Shown here: one piece after another, positions 430 through 61,725 of the stretch
How positions within the stretch are numbered: the stretch's first letter is position 1
Layout: each line of letters begins with the position of its first letter
Virus record (IMG/VR): IMGVR_UViG_3300042453_002018
Coordinates: 18,199 to 82,198 of that record
Strand: one strand, 5' to 3'
DNA length: 64,000 nucleotides
From: a virus
Made by a program: the position numbers and the translations under genes
Notes under the pieces: generated by a model
What the model saw: only the letters and a program-made list of their open reading frames with translations
Database searches by the model: none
What the model was told of the DNA's origin: nothing

Positions 430-3189
430 ATGAAATTTAGCGATTTTCTGCGTGAGCAGAAAGAAAAACATGCTGTCCTAGCATTTGGACGCATGAATCC
501 GATTACAAACGGTCACGAAAAAGTAGTTAAAACCGTTAAAAAACTTGCCAAACAAGTTGGCGGTTCACATCATATTGTCCTGTCACACTCACAGGATGCA
601 AAGAAAAATCCCCTTACAGTAGAACAAAAGATCAAACATGCTAAACATGCGTTTGCCGACACAAACTTTGTAGCAGCATCCAAAGAATCGCCTACATTCT
701 TTGATTATGCAGAAAAACTATACAAACAAGGCGTAACTCATCTTCACATGGTTGCTGGTTCTGATCGTGCTGTTGAATATGTAAAATTACTTCAAAAATA
801 TAATGGCACACATAAAGGTGCCCGTTTCAATTTCAAATATGTTGGTGTAGAATCCGCTGGTGAACGTGATCCAGATGCAGAAGGTGCAGAAGGAATTTCT
901 GCATCAAAGATGCGTGACGCTGCAAAGAACGGAGACTTTGATACTTTCAAAAAAGGTGCGCCATCAACAATGTCAGTTGCTCAAGTCAAACAAATGTATA
1001 ACGATGTTCGTAAAGGTATGAGACTTCATGAAGAAATACTTCGTGAAGGTGTTCATGACAAAGGTATTTTCAAAGCAGTATTTCTAGGTGGTGGTCCCGG
1101 TTCAGGTAAAGACTATGTGTTAAGCAAAACACTTGATGGTCATGGTCTGACAGAAATCAATTCTGACAAAGCACTTGAGTATTTGATGGACAAAGAAGGT
1201 CTTGATAAGAAGATGCCTGATGATGAAGAAGCACAACGTAATGCAGTTCGCAAGAGAGCAAAAAATGTAACGGAATTACGTCAGCGCCTTGCACTTCATG
1301 GACGTAATGGATTAATTATCAATGGTACAGGTGATGATCCAGAAAAGTATGCAAAACTTAAAGACATGCTTGAAAAGTTAGGCTATGAAACACAGATGAT
1401 CATGGTCAACACAGCAGACGAGGTTTCAAAAGAAAGAAACATCGAACGTGGTCAGCGCGGTGGTCGTACTGTACCAGAAAACATTCGTAAAGAAAAATGG
1501 GATTCTGTGCAAGCAGCACGACCAATGTTTGGTAAAATATTTCGTGACAATTACATTGAGTTTGATAATTCAGAAGATTTGCGTACCGCATCTCCAGATG
1601 TTGTGGAAGCAAAGACCAAAGAATTAGACGGCATTTTTAAGAGCGTACAAAAATTTGTTGCAAAACCACCTAAGAATGATGATGCAAAAGGCTGGATTGC
1701 TACTGAACTCGGCAAGAAAGATACCGCACCGATTCGTACCGACATGAAACCACACGCTGATGCAGGCACACATGATGACATGAACACGATGGGACTTGAA
1801 TACTATGGTTTTGGTCGTTATGGTAAAGATGGTAAAGTAACACACCGTTCTGTACACGGCAGTCTTGTGCCAGTTGAGAAGATTGCAAAAACTGTTGAAA
1901 CACATCAAAAGAAAATGTCAAAAGTAAATGAGGCATTTGATAAACTCATCAATGAAGCAGTTACAGTTTCGATTACTGGCGACACAGTAGAAGAAGTTAC
2001 TAAAACAATTCGTTTGCTGAAAACGGACGAAGAAGAAATGACTGAGGAAGAAGAAGTGAATACAATGTCTGATCCTGGTGCATACAATCTACTGACACTC
2101 GGTACAGGCATGATCAAAGAAGATTTGCGTAATTGGTTTAATCCAAAACATCCAGAGGGTGGTTGGAAACGAATCAATTCTAAAGGTGAAGCAATAGGTC
2201 CTTGTGCAAGAGAAGAGGGTGAACCAAAGCCAAAATGCATGTCAAATGCAAAGAGAGCAATGCTTTCTAAAAAAGAACGCGCATCAGCAGTTGCATCAAA
2301 ACGCCGTCATGATCCAAATCCAGAACGCAAGGGCGAACCAATTAATGTGTCAAGTTTTGGTAAAGGCAAAATTAGTGAAGCCGCATACGAGGGCAACATT
2401 GGCATGATGGAAGTTATGAAGTTCCATCAGAAAGCCACACCAGAACAAAAGAAAAAGTTCAAAGAACATCTTGCAAACAAAAATCACAAAGAAGCATGGA
2501 AAATGATTCAACATGTTTCTGGTACAAAGTTGATCGGTAAACAATTTGAAGAAACCGAAAAGAAGCAAAAACTGTTGACAGATAAAAATGGTAAACCAAG
2601 ATTGTTTTTCATTCGTGGTTCAGCAGCAAAAGAAGCACATCAAAAAAATGGTACAGTAGCAAAAGTTGGTAAAAGATATGTCGTTAAACTAAAAGAGGAC
2701 TTATATGAAGTACATTCACCTAATAATTCTGCGATTGAAGCAGTTTATGGACAGAATAACTCCACCCCGTCAGCCGAGCAACTTGGAAAAGTCAGAGCCA
2801 GTACTGGAAGAAAAGAACGACCAGCCCTCGACAAACCCGTTGCCGAAGGAAGAAGAACAATCAGTCTTGCCAGCATCAAAGAAAACTGGCAGAAAAAAAT
2901 CCAAGAGTCAATAGACAAAGGAATAGAACCAGGCATTTCAATGGCAGGTGCTGGTGAAAGCCCTGCAAGAGATATGGGTGAGAAACCAGATCGTGATGGT
3001 AAAGCAACACAAGTTACATGCAATGGTACAGGCGCAGGTGCAATATGTCCTAAACACGGAATGAAAAATTGCAGGCTTGCAGAATTAACTGGTGATGAAA
3101 CAACAGCAAGTATCGGCGATCAAAAAGAAGATGAATTGAAGAAAAAAGGTATATCACTCACAACATTCAAGAAAAAAAATTACATATGA
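430..3189 (+). CDS. Virion multi-domain protein: nucleotidyltransferase + P-loop kinase + DUF5872-like segments
   Basis: 919 residues. Residues 1-9 (MKFSDFLRE) resemble a T4 capsid-targeting peptide ending in LxE. Residues 14-200 are a cytidylyltransferase/NMNAT-like fold (FGRMNPITNGHEK, NGH at 27-29, ISASKMR near 157). Residues 207-400 are a P-loop kinase-like domain (GGGPGSGKD at 220-228). Residues about 565-640 resemble DUF5872 (HPEGGWKRIN, conserved Cys). Sites fitting (L/I)xE fall between these blocks: ILRE 203-206, LINE 506-509, ISE 648-650; VNE 499-501 and VAE 804-806 fit less well. Family knowledge: T4 gp21 cuts after LxE/IxE in core proteins. I infer a packaged, cleavable protein carrying enzymatic modules. 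SD-like AGAGGCGG precedes the ATG. The last codons overlap the next gene by ATGA. Confidence 0.8.
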   Translation: MKFSDFLREQKEKHAVLAFGRMNPITNGHEKVVKTVKKLAKQVGGSHHIVLSHSQDAKKNPLTVEQKIKHAKHAFADTNFVAASKESPTFFDYAEKLYKQGVTHLHMVAGSDRAVEYVKLLQKYNGTHKGARFNFKYVGVESAGERDPDAEGAEGISASKMRDAAKNGDFDTFKKGAPSTMSVAQVKQMYNDVRKGMRLHEEILREGVHDKGIFKAVFLGGGPGSGKDYVLSKTLDGHGLTEINSDKALEYLMDKEGLDKKMPDDEEAQRNAVRKRAKNVTELRQRLALHGRNGLIINGTGDDPEKYAKLKDMLEKLGYETQMIMVNTADEVSKERNIERGQRGGRTVPENIRKEKWDSVQAARPMFGKIFRDNYIEFDNSEDLRTASPDVVEAKTKELDGIFKSVQKFVAKPPKNDDAKGWIATELGKKDTAPIRTDMKPHADAGTHDDMNTMGLEYYGFGRYGKDGKVTHRSVHGSLVPVEKIAKTVETHQKKMSKVNEAFDKLINEAVTVSITGDTVEEVTKTIRLLKTDEEEMTEEEEVNTMSDPGAYNLLTLGTGMIKEDLRNWFNPKHPEGGWKRINSKGEAIGPCAREEGEPKPKCMSNAKRAMLSKKERASAVASKRRHDPNPERKGEPINVSSFGKGKISEAAYEGNIGMMEVMKFHQKATPEQKKKFKEHLANKNHKEAWKMIQHVSGTKLIGKQFEETEKKQKLLTDKNGKPRLFFIRGSAAKEAHQKNGTVAKVGKRYVVKLKEDLYEVHSPNNSAIEAVYGQNNSTPSAEQLGKVRASTGRKERPALDKPVAEGRRTISLASIKENWQKKIQESIDKGIEPGISMAGAGESPARDMGEKPDRDGKATQVTCNGTGAGAICPKHGMKNCRLAELTGDETTASIGDQKEDELKKKGISLTTFKKKNYI

Positions 3190-3968
3190 AAACTTTCAAA
3201 CAAATGATAGATGAGAGATGTTGGCCTGGGTACAAGCCTGTGCCAGGTAAAAAACCGTATTCATTAGGTTCTTGTCAAAAAGAAGAGATTGAAGAATTGG
3301 AAGAAAAAGGTCCTGGTTTGTGGGCAAATATTCGTGCAAAGAAAGCACGAGGTGAGCGTATGAGAAAGCCAGGAGAAGAAGGTGCACCAACTGATGCTCA
3401 AATCAAATCAATTAGAGCAAGTGAAGAAGTGGAACTAAGTGAATTGTCTAAATCAACTTTAGGTTCTTATCTGGTTAAAGCAAGTACAAATGCAAGACAA
3501 TTAGAAGGAAGTAGAGTGCGTGGTGGAACACAAAGAGGAAAGTTTCTTGCTTATAAAAAAATAAAAAAAGATATATCAAACAGATACGCTGGCATGGACC
3601 GTGCTATTTCAAAATTCCATTCAAAGTTAAATAAAGAAGAGTATGAACAAGATGATGGCGCATTGACTGAAGATCAACTAGAACAAATGAGAGAAGCAGC
3701 AGCATGGGAACGCGCAGAAGGTAAAAACCCAGAAGGCGGTTTGAATCGAAAAGGTATTGAATCATACCGTCGTGAGAATCCAGGTTCAAAGTTATCAATG
3801 GCAGTAACAACAAAACCTTCTAAGCTTGACCCAGATTCTAAAGCAGCAAAGCGCCGCAAATCATTTTGTGCAAGAATGGGTGGAATGAAAAAAAGATTAA
3901 CATCAGCAAAGACTGCAAAAGATCCAGATTCACGCATTAACAAAGCATTGAGAAAGTGGAACTGCTGA
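3186..3968 (+). CDS. Putative packaged core protein with DUF6321-like C-terminus
   Basis: 260 residues. Starts MKTFKQMIDE, closely like the T4 internal-protein targeting peptide (MKTYQEFIxE) with a predicted cut after E10. A second site LEE (38-40) and SELSE-like acidic stretch follow. The C-terminal 90 residues (WERAEGKNPEGGLNRKGIES ... KRRKSFCARMGGMKKR ... RKWNC) match the DUF6321 pattern known from phage and environmental proteins. Very basic C-terminus suggests DNA association. Translationally coupled on both sides (ATGA at 3186, TGATG at 3966). Confidence 0.7.
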   Translation: MKTFKQMIDERCWPGYKPVPGKKPYSLGSCQKEEIEELEEKGPGLWANIRAKKARGERMRKPGEEGAPTDAQIKSIRASEEVELSELSKSTLGSYLVKASTNARQLEGSRVRGGTQRGKFLAYKKIKKDISNRYAGMDRAISKFHSKLNKEEYEQDDGALTEDQLEQMREAAAWERAEGKNPEGGLNRKGIESYRRENPGSKLSMAVTTKPSKLDPDSKAAKRRKSFCARMGGMKKRLTSAKTAKDPDSRINKALRKWNC

Positions 3969-4195
3969 TGAAAACATTTAAGTCCTTCATAGTTGAAGAA
4001 AAGAAAGCAACAATAACTAAGAAAGAAAGTTATCGTGGCAGAACAACAGCCGATGTTGAATATAATGTACATGATGAAAATGGCCGTCATATTAGAACCA
4101 CAAAAACTAAAAAAGAAGCAAAAATGTGGAAAGATATGCATGAACTATCAAGGGAAGAAATGCATAAAAAATATCCGGAGTTAAAGCCAAAATAA
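3968..4195 (+). CDS. Small basic protein with capsid-targeting-like N-terminus
   Basis: 75 residues. I choose the ATG at 3968 rather than 3956 because it gives the peptide MKTFKSFIVEE, a third T4-like targeting sequence with a predicted IVE cut, and because it overlaps the upstream stop. Rest is Lys-rich and charged with no known domain. Probably a packaged internal protein like its two upstream neighbours. Confidence 0.65.
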   Translation: MKTFKSFIVEEKKATITKKESYRGRTTADVEYNVHDENGRHIRTTKTKKEAKMWKDMHELSREEMHKKYPELKPK

Positions 4196-4212: not shown

Positions 4213-5523
4213 GTGGCACAGTTTAGAACAGACCTACACAAGATAGATTCGGGACAAGTATTCACTCGGTATGAAGTGAATATGATGTCTGATCGTCTTA
4301 CACCATCTGGCACAATTACGGATGCGTTTGGTCGTCTTCGTCTATCACAACCATTTACTCTTTTTGATAGCACACATCGCTTTGCTGACAACGGACTGTG
4401 GTCAACATCAAATACAGCAGGAAATAGTTCTTATAATTTTGTAACGAATAAAAGTCTCATTGAAATGACTGTAGGAACTACAGCAAATGCTGAAGTCATT
4501 CGTGAAACAACAAGAGTGTTTTCATATCAACCAGGTAAGTCTTTGTTAATGATGTCGTCATTTGCTATGGAAACACCTAAAGCAAATGTTCGTCAAAGAG
4601 TTGGTTATTATGGTGCTGAGAATGGTATCTATCTTGAGAATGATGGAACGACTAATTATTTCGTGTTGAGAAGCAATACAACAGGTACGATTACAGAAAC
4701 AAAAGTTGCACAAACAGATTGGAGTATAGACAAGTTTGACGGCACGGGTTATTCATCTCAAAGTGGTGGTGCTGAACATACTGATGGCATTGATATAAGT
4801 AAAACAAATATTCTCTGGATGGATGTTGAATGGCTTGGCGTTGGTGATGTTCGTTGTGGATTTGTGGTTGATGGTAAAATGGTTCCTGCCCACATATTTC
4901 ACAATGATAATAAGAATTTGGTTCCTTATATGACAACGGCATCTTTACCGTTGCGTTATGAAATCAAGAACACAGGTATTACAACAAGTAATTCCACACT
5001 CAAACAGATTTGTTCAACCGTTATGTCTGAAGGTGGATATGAATTGCTTGGATCGCAGCAAGCCGTAGGCACACCAGTTACTAGCCCAATTGATTTGGCC
5101 GCTGCTGGAACATATTATAATCTCATTTCTTTGAGATTGAAATCGGATAAATTAGATGCGATTGTCATTATTACTGCACTATCTTTATTAGCCTTAACTA
5201 ACAACTCATATTATAACTGGCAACTCAGGGCAGGTGGCACAACAACAGGTGGAACTTGGGTTAGTGCAGGAGATAATTCGTCTGTTGAATATAAATTAGA
5301 TGCCGCAACAATTTCAGGTGGAAGAATATTAGCATCGGGCTTTACAACTTCTACTACACAAAGCTCTATACCAGTGGATATTCTTAGAGAAGCACTATTC
5401 AAATTTCAATTAGAAAGAAATGGATTGACCAATACACCCTTCGAACTCACATTATGCGTAGCAGCATCAGTTAATGGTTCTGATATCTACGCATCGATGG
5501 ATTGGGAAGAAGTCACAAGATAA
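4213..5523 (+). CDS. Virion structural protein (T4-like marine phage family)
   Basis: 436 residues with a GTG start directly after a stop. Ser/Thr/Gly-rich, beta-strand-rich sequence with no membrane segment (for example TPSGTITDAFGRLRLSQPF, HTDGIDISKTNILWMDVEWL). It resembles structural proteins seen in T4-like aquatic phages; precise location (tail fibre, decoration or baseplate) cannot be told. Sits between packaged-core genes and another core polyprotein, so late expression is expected. Confidence 0.65.
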   Translation: MAQFRTDLHKIDSGQVFTRYEVNMMSDRLTPSGTITDAFGRLRLSQPFTLFDSTHRFADNGLWSTSNTAGNSSYNFVTNKSLIEMTVGTTANAEVIRETTRVFSYQPGKSLLMMSSFAMETPKANVRQRVGYYGAENGIYLENDGTTNYFVLRSNTTGTITETKVAQTDWSIDKFDGTGYSSQSGGAEHTDGIDISKTNILWMDVEWLGVGDVRCGFVVDGKMVPAHIFHNDNKNLVPYMTTASLPLRYEIKNTGITTSNSTLKQICSTVMSEGGYELLGSQQAVGTPVTSPIDLAAAGTYYNLISLRLKSDKLDAIVIITALSLLALTNNSYYNWQLRAGGTTTGGTWVSAGDNSSVEYKLDAATISGGRILASGFTTSTTQSSIPVDILREALFKFQLERNGLTNTPFELTLCVAASVNGSDIYASMDWEEVTR

Positions 5524-5548: not shown

Positions 5549-7063
5549 ATGTCAATTTTTCATGACAAAAATCTAAAAAGTGTTGCGGAAGCAGCAGCAA
5601 AGATCATGGCTGAAACAAGTCATGAATTAAAGGGCAACCAACATAAAATTGACGCCAATAAAAATGGCAAAATTGATGCTCACGACTTTAAGCTTCTGCG
5701 TGGTAAGAAAGACACAAAGAAAGACATGCAAGAAGGTGTTAAAGGTGCAGCAGTTGGTGGTGCATTAGGTGCTATGGCAGGTGGTCCAGTTGGCGCAGCA
5801 GTTGGTGGTGCATTAGGTCATGCGGCTGGTGAGGTTCTTTCAAGCGCAAAAAATAAAGCAAAAACAATGGGTCGTGTTGCTGTGGGTCCTTCAATGGCCG
5901 ATAGCAAAATGAAGAAAGAAGAGATTGAGCAACTTGATGAAGTTGGTGATACACCATCAGGTAGAAAAACACTAAGCTCATATGTCAACAAAGCAATTGG
6001 TGACAAATCAAAAGATCGCTCAAAAGGTTTGCGTAAAGCAACATCACGCCTCTACAAAGACAACTTCTACGGCAAAAAAACAAATGAAGAAGTTGAACAG
6101 ATTGATGAGATCAGTTTAGATTTAGCAAAAAGAGCCAGAGATAAAGCCGAGCATATGGTTGATGCGGATCATGACGATATGAGAGATAAACCATATGGTT
6201 ATAGTGAAAAGCAAAGAGTCAAGTTTCAAAAATACGTTGACAAAAAAGAGTCAAAGAAAAACGTAAAAGAAGAAGTTGAACTTGATGAAGCATTTCCAAC
6301 TGTAGCAGATGCAAAGAAGCGTATGGATGCAGGTAAAACAGCAACAGGTTCAGTCACAAAAACTGCAACAGGTCTTGTTCATAAGCGTGACTACAAAGAT
6401 GATGATAATGATGAAGCACCAAAAAAATCAACAGGTTATGGCGCGCGTCAAAACTACAAGCGTTCAACCCGTGTCAATGAGGCAGCATCATTTACAGAAA
6501 TGCTTGAACTGTACAATGAGCATGGTCTGAAAGTGTTAGCACCAATTGAAACAGAAGAGATGGACATTGATGGCACGATGATTGAAGTTATTGATGCAGA
6601 TCAAGTGAACGGTTTCGTTCAAACTGAAATTGAGGAAGGCATCATGGACGTTGCAAAAGGTGCGGTAGGTGTAGTAAAAAATGTCATTTCAAAAGAAAAA
6701 GAGTATCAAGCACAAAAGCAGAAAAAAGCAGGCGAAGTTTTGAGAAAACTTCGTAAAGAAGAATCACTATCAGAAGAACCAACAAATGATGAGTTCACAA
6801 AAGAATATGAAGACCAAAAAGCAAGTTTTGAAGGTAAAAAGAAACAACCAAAAGTTGCTGCTGGTAAAACAACTGGTGTAAAAGAAATGCCTGAGAGTTA
6901 TCAGCAAATTGATGAGCGTGAACTATCAACTGGTGAAGCCAAGAAAAAAGAAGAATATGTCAAAGGCATGAAGAAGGGTCTTTCTGGCTTTAAACAGCGT
7001 TATGGTGAACGTGCTAAATCTGTAATGTATGCAACGGCTACAAAAATGGCTAAAAAGGACTAA
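5549..7063 (+). CDS. Putative packaged polyprotein with repeated prohead-protease sites
   Basis: 504 residues, highly charged. A calcium-loop-like stretch (DANKNGKIDAHDF, 35-47) and a glycine-zipper (GAAVGGALGAMAGGPVGAA, 66-84) precede repeated boundary motifs: EEIEQLDE (124-131), EEVEQIDE (180-187), VELDE (243-247), RVNE (308-311), IEE (361-363), LSE (407-409), QIDE (453-456). These fit or nearly fit the gp21 (L/I)xE rule. The C-terminus (GLSGFKQRYGERAKSVMYAT) is a segment recurrent in T4-like aquatic phages. Inference: scaffold-core or internal virion protein cut into at least six peptides. SD AGGAGAA precedes the ATG. Confidence 0.7.
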   Translation: MSIFHDKNLKSVAEAAAKIMAETSHELKGNQHKIDANKNGKIDAHDFKLLRGKKDTKKDMQEGVKGAAVGGALGAMAGGPVGAAVGGALGHAAGEVLSSAKNKAKTMGRVAVGPSMADSKMKKEEIEQLDEVGDTPSGRKTLSSYVNKAIGDKSKDRSKGLRKATSRLYKDNFYGKKTNEEVEQIDEISLDLAKRARDKAEHMVDADHDDMRDKPYGYSEKQRVKFQKYVDKKESKKNVKEEVELDEAFPTVADAKKRMDAGKTATGSVTKTATGLVHKRDYKDDDNDEAPKKSTGYGARQNYKRSTRVNEAASFTEMLELYNEHGLKVLAPIETEEMDIDGTMIEVIDADQVNGFVQTEIEEGIMDVAKGAVGVVKNVISKEKEYQAQKQKKAGEVLRKLRKEESLSEEPTNDEFTKEYEDQKASFEGKKKQPKVAAGKTTGVKEMPESYQQIDERELSTGEAKKKEEYVKGMKKGLSGFKQRYGERAKSVMYATATKMAKKD

Positions 7064-7065
7064 TT

Positions 7066-8322
7066 ATGTCAGTCGCAGATAAATTACATCAACGACAAAT
7101 GGCTCTGCGTAAGAAGTCGGGACTACCACATCCCGACTATTACAAAGAGTTGGGGCATTCATACAATATTTCTGATGATAACGAAAGACTTGCGAAGCAG
7201 GCTGAAATCAAAAAGAAATATAAAGTTGAAGAAGTTGAACAACTTGATGAGATGCCAGAGTCAAGCATGAAGACACGCGATGTTCATGCACATTTAAAAA
7301 AGTCTGGCTGGTCACTCAAACGCACAGGTGGTGGTCATGATGTTTATGCTCACCCCAAATCAGAGAAACATATTGCTGTGCCAAGACATAAACAACTCAA
7401 AGCACCATTAATTCGTGGTATTATGAAAGCATCAAGAGTTTCTGAAGAAACCGAAATTGATGAGCAACTTCACAAGAAAGGAAAGTTTGTGTCAGGTCCA
7501 GTTAAAAAACCATACAAATCACCTACCGTGGTTTCACCAATTAGAGAAGCAAAAGATTCGCGTGAGTATGATTACGAAGGCGATATGGCAATGTCACAAC
7601 TTCGGTCGTTAGTTTTTAATGCAGAAGATTTGATGGAAATGATGGATGAAAACACAAATCTTCCTGAGTGGGTGCAATCAAAAATTACACTTGCTGAAGA
7701 TTATATCTCTACAGCAGCAAACTATCTGCGTGGTGAATTATCGGAGTCGGTTAGTTTGAATGAAGGTCGTCCATCACAGCGTCATCCACTAGAGGGTCAT
7801 GAGTATCACAAAAAATCTAATGCCGAGTTGATTGGTATTGCTAAAGATGCACACGCTGCTGCTGAAGCAATGAAAGGACACAGTCCACGGGCAGAGAACA
7901 AATATCGTGATCAAGCAAACGATTCTGCAACAGTAAGATATTTCCGTCAAAAGAGTGGCATGCCCGACTGGTACAAGAAGAAGTATGGACATGTCAAGGA
8001 AGAAGTTGAACAGTTGGAAGAAAAGAATGTACCAACTTCACCTGAGAAGTGGGCGCAGGCTAAAGCACAAGCAAAGCAAAAGTTTGATGTATATCCTTCA
8101 GCATATGCAAATGGTTGGGCTGCAAAGAAATACAAAGAAATGGGTGGTGGTTGGAAGTCTGTAAACGAAGACACGGATGATCCAAGCGCAGCAGCAAGAA
8201 CTCTGTCACGTAAAGCACAAATCGTGAGAGATGCCGCAAAAGGAAAAAAGCAAGAACAAGAACAGGCATCGGACAAGTTTCAAAAAGACCCCGAATTGTC
8301 TAGCGATATGCAGAAAACATAA
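7066..8322 (+). CDS. Putative packaged polyprotein with a HicA-like toxin module
   Basis: 418 residues. Modules lie between predicted gp21 sites: EEVEQLDE (55-62), EIDE (130-133), PIRE (158-161), SLNE (230-233), EEVEQLEE (312-319), SVNE (365-368; Val at P3, weaker fit). Residues 68-125 read as a HicA mRNA-interferase fold (LKKSGWSLKRTGGGHDVYAH, with H91, then VPRHKQLK and LIRGIMKAS). Residues 320-366 contain YPSAYANGWAAKKY, a segment found in DUF5872-like proteins. Residues 196-225 (LPEWVQSKITLAEDYISTAA) are a helical segment typical of T4-like virion proteins. No HicB antitoxin is seen nearby. Begins two bases after the previous gene stops. Confidence 0.7.
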   Translation: MSVADKLHQRQMALRKKSGLPHPDYYKELGHSYNISDDNERLAKQAEIKKKYKVEEVEQLDEMPESSMKTRDVHAHLKKSGWSLKRTGGGHDVYAHPKSEKHIAVPRHKQLKAPLIRGIMKASRVSEETEIDEQLHKKGKFVSGPVKKPYKSPTVVSPIREAKDSREYDYEGDMAMSQLRSLVFNAEDLMEMMDENTNLPEWVQSKITLAEDYISTAANYLRGELSESVSLNEGRPSQRHPLEGHEYHKKSNAELIGIAKDAHAAAEAMKGHSPRAENKYRDQANDSATVRYFRQKSGMPDWYKKKYGHVKEEVEQLEEKNVPTSPEKWAQAKAQAKQKFDVYPSAYANGWAAKKYKEMGGGWKSVNEDTDDPSAAARTLSRKAQIVRDAAKGKKQEQEQASDKFQKDPELSSDMQKT

Positions 8323-60537: not shown

Positions 60538-60708
60538 ATGCAAATTAGTGAACAAGATTATTACGAAAGATTTGAAGCATACTTGAAAGAATGTGGTTCT
60601 AATCCAGGCACAACATTCTTTGGTGCATGGGGTTGGTATGCAGCAAGAAAAAATGAATTTGATGCAATAATGCAAGAAGACGGAATTGTTGTAACTCCTT
60701 CAAAGTGA
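60538..60708 (+). CDS. Hypothetical small protein
   Basis: 56 residues (MQISEQDYYERFEAYLKECG ... TTFFGAWGWYAARKNEFDAI). Its last codons lie next to or within the start of the tmRNA acceptor piece, so RNA processing there would remove its stop codon. Confidence 0.5.
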   Translation: MQISEQDYYERFEAYLKECGSNPGTTFFGAWGWYAARKNEFDAIMQEDGIVVTPSK

Positions 60709-60990
60709 AGGCATTCTGGACCCGGGTTCGATCCCCGGCATCTCCACCAAAAGTATTCTTGTCCATGGAGTTGGGAACGGAAAGATAAACCGTGAGAATA
60801 CTTTTGATGGGGATGACATGGCTTCGACAGGGTGAGATAGCGGAGAAGGCAACACAGTAGGCGATGACTGTAAATCAAGCAAATCTACAAATGCAAACGA
60901 TGCATTTTACGGAGAAGAACGCCTAGCAGCGTAACTCTCATGGGGTTTAAGTGGGGTGTACCTTATTACCAAAACACCCTACACCAAATT
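60695..60990 (+). ncRNA. ssrA: Circularly permuted (two-piece) tmRNA
   Basis: The acceptor piece comes first: CATTCTG (60712-60718), T-arm CCGGG-TTCGATC-CCCGG, then CATCTCC-A-CCA ending at 60749. A linker (60750-60808) follows, closed by AAAAGTATTCT / AGAATACTTTT. The coding piece starts GGGGATG (60809), which pairs with CATCTCC, and has ACATGGCTTCGACAGGGTG, in which CAGGGTG pairs with CATTCTG (P2). The tag frame at 60893-60934 reads ANDAFYGEERLAA then TAA. 5' and 3' outer ends are approximate; a GGGTGT / ACACCC hairpin (about 60953-60985) probably closes the coding piece. tmRNA with SmpB frees stalled ribosomes and tags the peptide for ClpXP. Confidence 0.9.
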
Positions 60991-61002
60991 CAGAGATACA
61001 TT

Positions 61003-61725
61003 ATGAAAGTAAACATTGGTCCTTATACAAACTGGTTCGGTCCCTATCAATTAGCAGACTTACTTTGCTTCTGGGCAAAGAAAGTACCCGATGAGTGTGG
61101 CTTTTCACGAAAGCCTGATTGGGTTCACGACTTTGGTACATGGCTTGCAGAAGATCGAAACGGTAACGACTCTTGGTTGACTAAAGTTTGCCAAAAGATT
61201 GAAGAGTACAAGAAGCGCAAAATCAAAATACGCATTGACAAGTATGACACATGGTCAATGGATCACACATTAGGTATGATCGTTTTGCCGATGTTGAAAC
61301 AGTTGCGTGATACTAAACACGGTTCACCACTAGTTGATACAGAAGATGTGCCAGAAGAACTACGTATTAGTGGTTATGACGATTGTTCTTCCCAACTTGA
61401 ATTGAAGTTTGAAGATGATGAAGAATTTCAAAAAAAATCTTGGGACATCACACATCGTCGTTGGGAATGGGTGTTGAATGAAATGATTTTTGCATTTGAA
61501 CACCTCATTGACGATTCGTGGGAAGAAGCATATCGTTCGGGTAATATTGATACACATTCTGTGCCGTGTGAATGGGATGCAGATGGTAAACCAATACTCT
61601 ACACATTTGAACACGGACCAAATCACACATACGAATGTGATTACGATGGCATGAAAAAAGTTTATGATCGTATGGATAACGGTTTTCGTTTATTTGGTAA
61701 ATACTACAGAGGACTTTGGGATTGA
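61003..61725 (+). CDS. Conserved phage protein
   Basis: 240 residues from ATG 61003: MKVNIGPYTNWFGPYQLADL ... DTWSMDHTLGMIVLPMLKQL ... WEWVLNEMIFAFEHLIDDSW. Widespread in large aquatic phages, often late; function unknown. Follows the tmRNA directly. Confidence 0.65.
   Translation: MKVNIGPYTNWFGPYQLADLLCFWAKKVPDECGFSRKPDWVHDFGTWLAEDRNGNDSWLTKVCQKIEEYKKRKIKIRIDKYDTWSMDHTLGMIVLPMLKQLRDTKHGSPLVDTEDVPEELRISGYDDCSSQLELKFEDDEEFQKKSWDITHRRWEWVLNEMIFAFEHLIDDSWEEAYRSGNIDTHSVPCEWDADGKPILYTFEHGPNHTYECDYDGMKKVYDRMDNGFRLFGKYYRGLWD

Follow-up and report, generated by a model that had tools for sequence, protein, structure and literature searches.

Here we describe a predicted HicA toxin module that lies within a 418-residue modular protein of a T4-like, Kyanoviridae-like aquatic phage, between two putative cleavage sites of the prohead protease gp21. 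On balance, we favor the view that this HicA is an antitoxin-free RNase carried as a cargo module of a T4-like prohead-core polyprotein, and that it would be cut out by gp21, packaged, ejected and left to cleave RNA.

RESULTS

The HicA module lies in a cluster of genes for modular proteins

The stretch of DNA that we analyzed, hereafter the window, comprises 64,000 nucleotides (bases 18199-82198 of the 82-kb virus record IMGVR_UViG_3300042453_002018). Besides a tmRNA gene (60657-61025), it has 24 tRNA genes, and its genes resemble those of the Kyanoviridae (cyanophages, Methylophilales phages and HTVC008M). All protein features described below lie on its plus strand. The ORF at 7066-8322 encodes the 418-residue protein, a putative prohead-core polyprotein. 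Its neighbors are a 919-residue polyprotein that starts with MKFSDFLRE and combines cytidylyltransferase and zeta-toxin-like P-loop kinase domains (430-3189; PF06414 for the kinase, 5e-14), a 260-residue DUF6321 polyprotein starting with MKTFKQMIDE (3186-3968), a 75-residue internal-protein-like gene product starting with MKTFKSFIVE (3968-4195), a virion structural protein encoded within the polyprotein cluster (phrog_1645; 4213-5523) and a 504-residue sister polyprotein with EEVEQLDE-type sites like those of the 418-residue protein (5549-7063).

Several of these genes deserve a separate remark. The 919-residue protein would represent a second toxin-like enzyme with a targeting-like peptide at its start, and it may be packaged as well. 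Searches of NCBIfam, Pfam and PHROG with the 75-residue protein gave no significant match. In the 504-residue polyprotein, a DANKNGKIDAHDF stretch resembles an EF-hand and another segment a glycine zipper, each scoring under the Pfam cut-offs. The core of a T4-like late promoter (ATAAATA) occurs in the window at a frequency below chance and was not informative.

Residues 63-133 have the features of a HicA toxin

The original prediction, made on the letters of the DNA, had recognized a HicA pattern in residues 63-133, and this assignment held. Bases 7252-7464 translate to MPESSMKT...TEIDE, which is exactly this segment. Pfam HicA_toxin (PF07927) matched it with 42.9 bits (E=5e-11; gathering score, 27), the core domain spanning residues 71-122 (7276-7431), and PHROG family phrog_353, annotated as "toxin," matched with E=9e-14; none of the NCBIfam models did. 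Structure prediction, suggested earlier as a check, also returned the HicA fold: the AlphaFold model of the module, built with 21 homologues (pLDDT, 86.5), shows the succession helix-strand-strand-strand-helix, the dsRBD-like arrangement of HicA. When this model was compared with the PDB by Foldseek, the top seven matches were all HicA proteins, the best being 6g26 (rmsd, 1.1 Å; TM, 0.78/0.83; identity, 27%). Designed coiled coils that outscored HicA in a PDB sequence search were dismissed as composition matches.

In the HicA of Burkholderia pseudomallei, toxicity is lost upon change of either Gly22 or His24 (PMC3969222). By alignment, their equivalents are Gly89 (7330-7332) and His91 (7336-7338), and both were kept in all 34 distinct versions of the module, as was the VPRH motif, at overall identities to the window module as low as 56%. 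Furthermore, the median pairwise dN/dS of the module was about 0.16, a value that is only approximate because synonymous sites are near saturation but that indicates purifying selection. It is thus well supported, by modeling and alignment, that residues 63-133 would adopt a true HicA fold with its active-site residues intact.

These data also bear on what the module might do if it is packaged and released. It could bind nucleic acid only, as a DNA-neutralizing internal protein or an RNA-binding protein devoid of RNase activity. This would suit its basic character (pI of about 9.8 to 10.6), the positively charged, dsRBD-like surface of HicA (PMC3969222) and the fact that T4 internal proteins touch the packaged DNA via lysines (PMC3012670). 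However, a neutralizer needs neither the Gly and His residues required for toxicity nor an invariant VPRH, and these have persisted despite the drop in overall identity, which makes the binding-only explanation unlikely in our view. We consider it quite improbable that the injected HicA acts as an antidefense decoy, that is, that it binds a host HicB or a HicA-dependent defense complex and alters its state with no free RNase being involved. IPI of T4 is indeed injected and inhibits a nuclease of the host (PMC3012670), and HicA domains are described as frequent in defense islands, with a proposed antiphage role (PMC10865869). Nevertheless, the catalytic residue of a decoy need not be invariant, yet here it is, and titration of HicB would release the host's own toxin.

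No HicB partner accompanies the module

It had been noted that no hicB gene lies next to the module, and a broader search bears this out. In the phage's own contig and 19 related contigs, which are possibly incomplete, no HicB family (PF15919 or PF05534) was matched above the curated cut-off, and the sole trace of HicB was a subthreshold match with three stops. We also looked for bacterial relatives of the module in 84,980 prokaryote genomes and found none, with two narrow patterns that bear on close copies only. Among the isolated phages of INPHARED, just distant HicA relatives were retrieved, all of them outside such polyproteins, and the exact module was absent.

The HicA segment is exchanged among phage polyproteins

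Using the 418-residue ORF as a query, we recovered 77 viral loci in which the same blocks occur in changed order and with other blocks inserted. The HicA module alone retrieved 55 viral contigs, where it is embedded in a wide variety of proteins, a recurrence which indicates that the module is more than a chance resemblance. Its position varies among polyproteins of 180 to 1432 residues, and in L050/L129, L123, L124 and L128 it lies within a homologue of the DUF6321 gene found at 3186-3968 of the window. Grouped by shared 4-mers, the HicA contexts fell into 22 upstream and 13 downstream groups; context counts should not be taken as probabilities, since the contexts are phylogenetically nonindependent. 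It is well supported that the HicA segment is a separable, exchangeable module.

Three further modules were delineated in the 418-residue protein. A two-helix module (EYDYEGDM...LPEWVQSKITLAEDYIS; 7549-7746), with helices predicted at residues 169-192 and 201-227, occurs in cyanophages and HTVC008M too. It is followed by the helical GRPSQRHPLEGHEYHKK module (7765-8001) and by the KNVPT..PSAYANGWAAKKYKEMGGGW module (phrog_27331; 8023-8169), also present in T4-GC119 of Synechococcus phage S-BM3. A Pfam scan of the window proteins and 34 relatives detected no embedded peptidase domain.

Two side observations concern the relatives. The 1431-residue HicA polyprotein of L143 (3809-8101) gave a weak match to an intein-splicing domain (PF14890), below the cut-off. 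T4-GC119 of cyanophages S-SM2 (L146, 3698-5824) and S-BM3 (L148, 2539-3552) adjoins terminase genes; it is a similar modular protein in isolated phages, with a DUF6321-like block at its end.

Most module boundaries coincide with predicted prohead-protease sites

The T4 prohead protease gp21 cleaves after L/I-X-E (PMC9026906). The QLDE and EIDE sequences pointed out earlier as cut sites flanking the HicA segment are indeed present: LDE (residues 60-62; 7243-7251) lies on its N-terminal side, in a low-confidence linker (residues 56-64), and IDE (residues 131-133; 7456-7464) on its C-terminal side. Further predicted sites precede the other modules, namely IRE (7540-7548; linker, residues 127-169) before the EYDYEGDM helical module, LNE (7756-7764) before the GRPSQRHPLEGH module and LEE (8014-8022) before the KNVPTSPEKW module. 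When the whole ORF was modeled with AlphaFold, which gave a rough guide only (mean pLDDT, 62), LDE62, IDE133, IRE161, LNE233 and LEE319 all fell within segments of pLDDT <50, consistent with unstructured linkers on both sides of HicA. LSE227 was found at the edge of such a segment, and LME191, LPE201 and LAE211 are in or beside helices of one predicted folded module; LPE201 and LAE211, which lie inside it, count against the proposed processing.

Across the relatives, [LI]xE stands directly N-terminal of the HicA module in every one of the 43 distinct contexts, compared to a background of 1.5% per position in these proteins. Similarly, it marks the start of the GRPSQRHP (47/51 contexts), KNxPT (45/45), LSxxTLxSY (14/14) and AKDxxEYDYEGD (13/14) modules. 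The association was weaker at DLRxWF (21/36) and RCWPGYK (15/27), and the start of DUF6321 is mostly displaced from the tripeptide by at least 1 residue. All six leucine codons are in use at the HicA-side LDE, indicating that the protein rather than the DNA is conserved. The tripeptides before GRPSQRHP include LQE, LEE, ITE, LTE, LDE, LSE and others, with constant ends and a free middle residue. A middle residue and codons that vary in this way are as expected of a protease recognition sequence rather than of a DNA joint that has been copied, and an inherited DNA joint was therefore ruled out for the left-hand HicA site.

On the C-terminal side of HicA, position 65 is occupied by V/I-x-E in almost every relative. 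In a little more than half of the distinct contexts, L/I-x-E follows within about 12 residues past the HicA core; the remaining contexts have V-x-E only, which is outside the T4 consensus. Since [L/I]-x-E is less constant here than on the N-terminal side, C-terminal release is less certain outside this phage. Judged from these motifs, it is well supported that the HicA module is bounded by putative gp21-type L/I-x-E sites, and there is likewise good reason to think that the 418-residue protein would be cleaved at them.

Relatives encode gp21, and sister proteins carry putative capsid-targeting peptides

Six related contigs were found to encode a homologue of gp21 (PF03420; E values no higher than 4e-33), and HicA is present in three of the six as well; near-complete relatives of the window phage carry gp21. 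The phage's own 82-kb contig contains none; because this contig is a fragment, the protease is deduced from the relatives. The head genes near gp21 in the relatives follow the T4 order. Four major capsid proteins have LSE, LQE, LTE or LYE at the position that corresponds to the T4 gp23 cleavage site, which we take to be LTE.

T4 internal proteins are packed via an N-terminal targeting peptide, although not all T4 core proteins bear one (PMC9958956). IPII and IPIII share the peptide MKTYQEFIAE; that of IPI reads MKTFKEF. A strict pattern for it matched only two protein starts in the window, those of the genes at 3186 and 3968, and had no match in 20 shuffles; its DNA form gave 7 matches in the 20 contigs, and the reversed pattern gave none. 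The HicA protein of L050 begins with MKSFTQFINE followed by EVEILDE and the HicA module, and that of L123 has MKTFKAFISE, EVELLDE and HicA in the same arrangement. A T4-like targeting peptide, MKSLKQHI[AS]E, also stands directly before the GRPSQRHP module of L064 and L119. The 418-residue protein itself starts with MSVADKLHQRQ and has no T4-type capsid-targeting peptide. Overall, it is well supported that it belongs to a set of T4-like prohead-core proteins.

As a separate observation, MKxFxxFLxE peptides are found at the N termini of several genes located beside the cytidylyltransferase gene in Synechococcus, Methylophilales and other phages (L149, 2255-3418; L150, 5606-7947; L151, 6365-9667). 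To judge by their sequence, they look like capsid-targeting sequences beyond the T-even phages.

S-SM1 virions contain a homologue of a sister protein

The cytidylyltransferase T4-GC190 was detected in purified S-SM1 virions by Sullivan et al. (PMC3037559). We found that it shares homology with the 919-residue protein, in the first domain of the latter (43.5% identity), and that it starts with MKKFSAFLNE followed by an alanine. Its detection is the sole direct evidence for the presence of proteins of this cluster in the virion, and it concerns a sister protein and not HicA. Taken with the data above, it makes packaging of the HicA module in the virion a well-supported proposal.

It is very unlikely that these proteins are multidomain factors which are neither cleaved nor packaged, with the acidic EEVEQLDE linkers as mere flexible linkers or recombination joints and HicA, if active, acting late in the producing cell: the linkers do recur, the modules are clearly exchanged and the 418-residue protein lacks a targeting peptide, but the tripeptide is constant only at L/I and E, its middle residue and codons varying as in a protease motif, sister proteins bear targeting peptides and one has the homologue in S-SM1 virions.

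DISCUSSION

We propose that the packaged HicA RNase would work as follows. The polyprotein would be made late in infection and would join the prohead core alongside sister proteins bearing a T4-type capsid-targeting peptide. A gp21-family protease would then cut the unstructured linkers after [L/I]-x-E, here after LDE62 and IDE133, yielding an 8-kDa basic HicA. This fragment would remain in the head beside the DNA, like IPI and IPIII of T4, and would be ejected with the genome to cleave RNA in the new host, resulting in a shutdown of translation or in the degradation of defense RNA. An active RNase that is produced in bulk late in infection, with no antitoxin, ought to be harmful to the producing cell unless its precursor is inactive. 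Inactivity of the uncut HicA would account for the tolerance of the producing cell in spite of the missing antitoxin.

The early steps, entry into the core and cutting, would be well supported by the motif pattern and by analogy with T4. Late expression, retention in the head and RNA as the target are steps that we infer, and ejection and RNase activity of the HicA module are postulated. As a whole, it appears probable that a toxin is packed in the phage head, cut loose and delivered to the host along with the DNA. More tentatively, we suggest that in a group of T4-like aquatic phages the prohead protease turns shuffled polyproteins into injected effectors, including an active, antitoxin-free HicA RNase that would attack RNA at the time of DNA entry. 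If this is true, a toxin of a toxin-antitoxin system has been converted into a prepacked phage weapon. The unannotated modular proteins of marine and freshwater T4-like phages would become readable, each segment bounded by L/I-x-E being a candidate injected effector. This would offer a sequence-based route to injected proteins, which are so far known in detail for few model phages.

Capsid-borne effectors are already known, as exemplified by T4 Alt and IPI, the MuF toxins (PMC5576092) and the polyvalent proteins (PMC5512222), and the original claim that a toxin delivered inside a capsid would be new was therefore too strong. In the open-access papers searched, we found no description of HicA as a capsid-delivered polyprotein module. 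The module resembles the HicA of type II HicAB systems in its fold, its catalytic Gly and His and its domain size. However, HicAB systems have HicB, whereas here the module is placed between predicted protease sites in phage polyproteins and no HicB was found in the related contigs. Such a polyprotein context is not among the 14 contexts of a HicA survey, as far as its available text goes (PMC10865869).

The polyvalent proteins are similar in being multidomain phage proteins with effector domains that are thought to be coinjected with DNA, and their authors, in a paper that contains no mention of HicA, likened them to viral polyproteins (Iyer et al. 2017, PMC5512222). They differ in that their release is attributed to an embedded peptidase, whereas no such domain is embedded here and the sites fit the phage's prohead protease. 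The MuF polymorphic toxins share toxin domains and a proposed delivery by the phage head (PMC5576092). Unlike the proteins described here, in which no MuF domain was seen, they belong to temperate phages of Firmicutes, carry the toxin at the C-terminal end of the MuF portal-associated protein and are usually followed by a small gene for a putative immunity protein.

The closest parallel is provided by IPI, IPII, IPIII and Alt of T4. Both systems share the order of the head genes, a gp21-family protease, L/I-x-E sites, MKTFxxFIxE-like peptides, here on the sister proteins, and small basic cargo. The T4 internal proteins bear a targeting peptide, whereas the 418-residue protein does not. Finally, T4 encodes one cargo per gene, whereas in the phages described here several modules are combined in one polypeptide and shuffled among phages, one of them being a HicA toxin.
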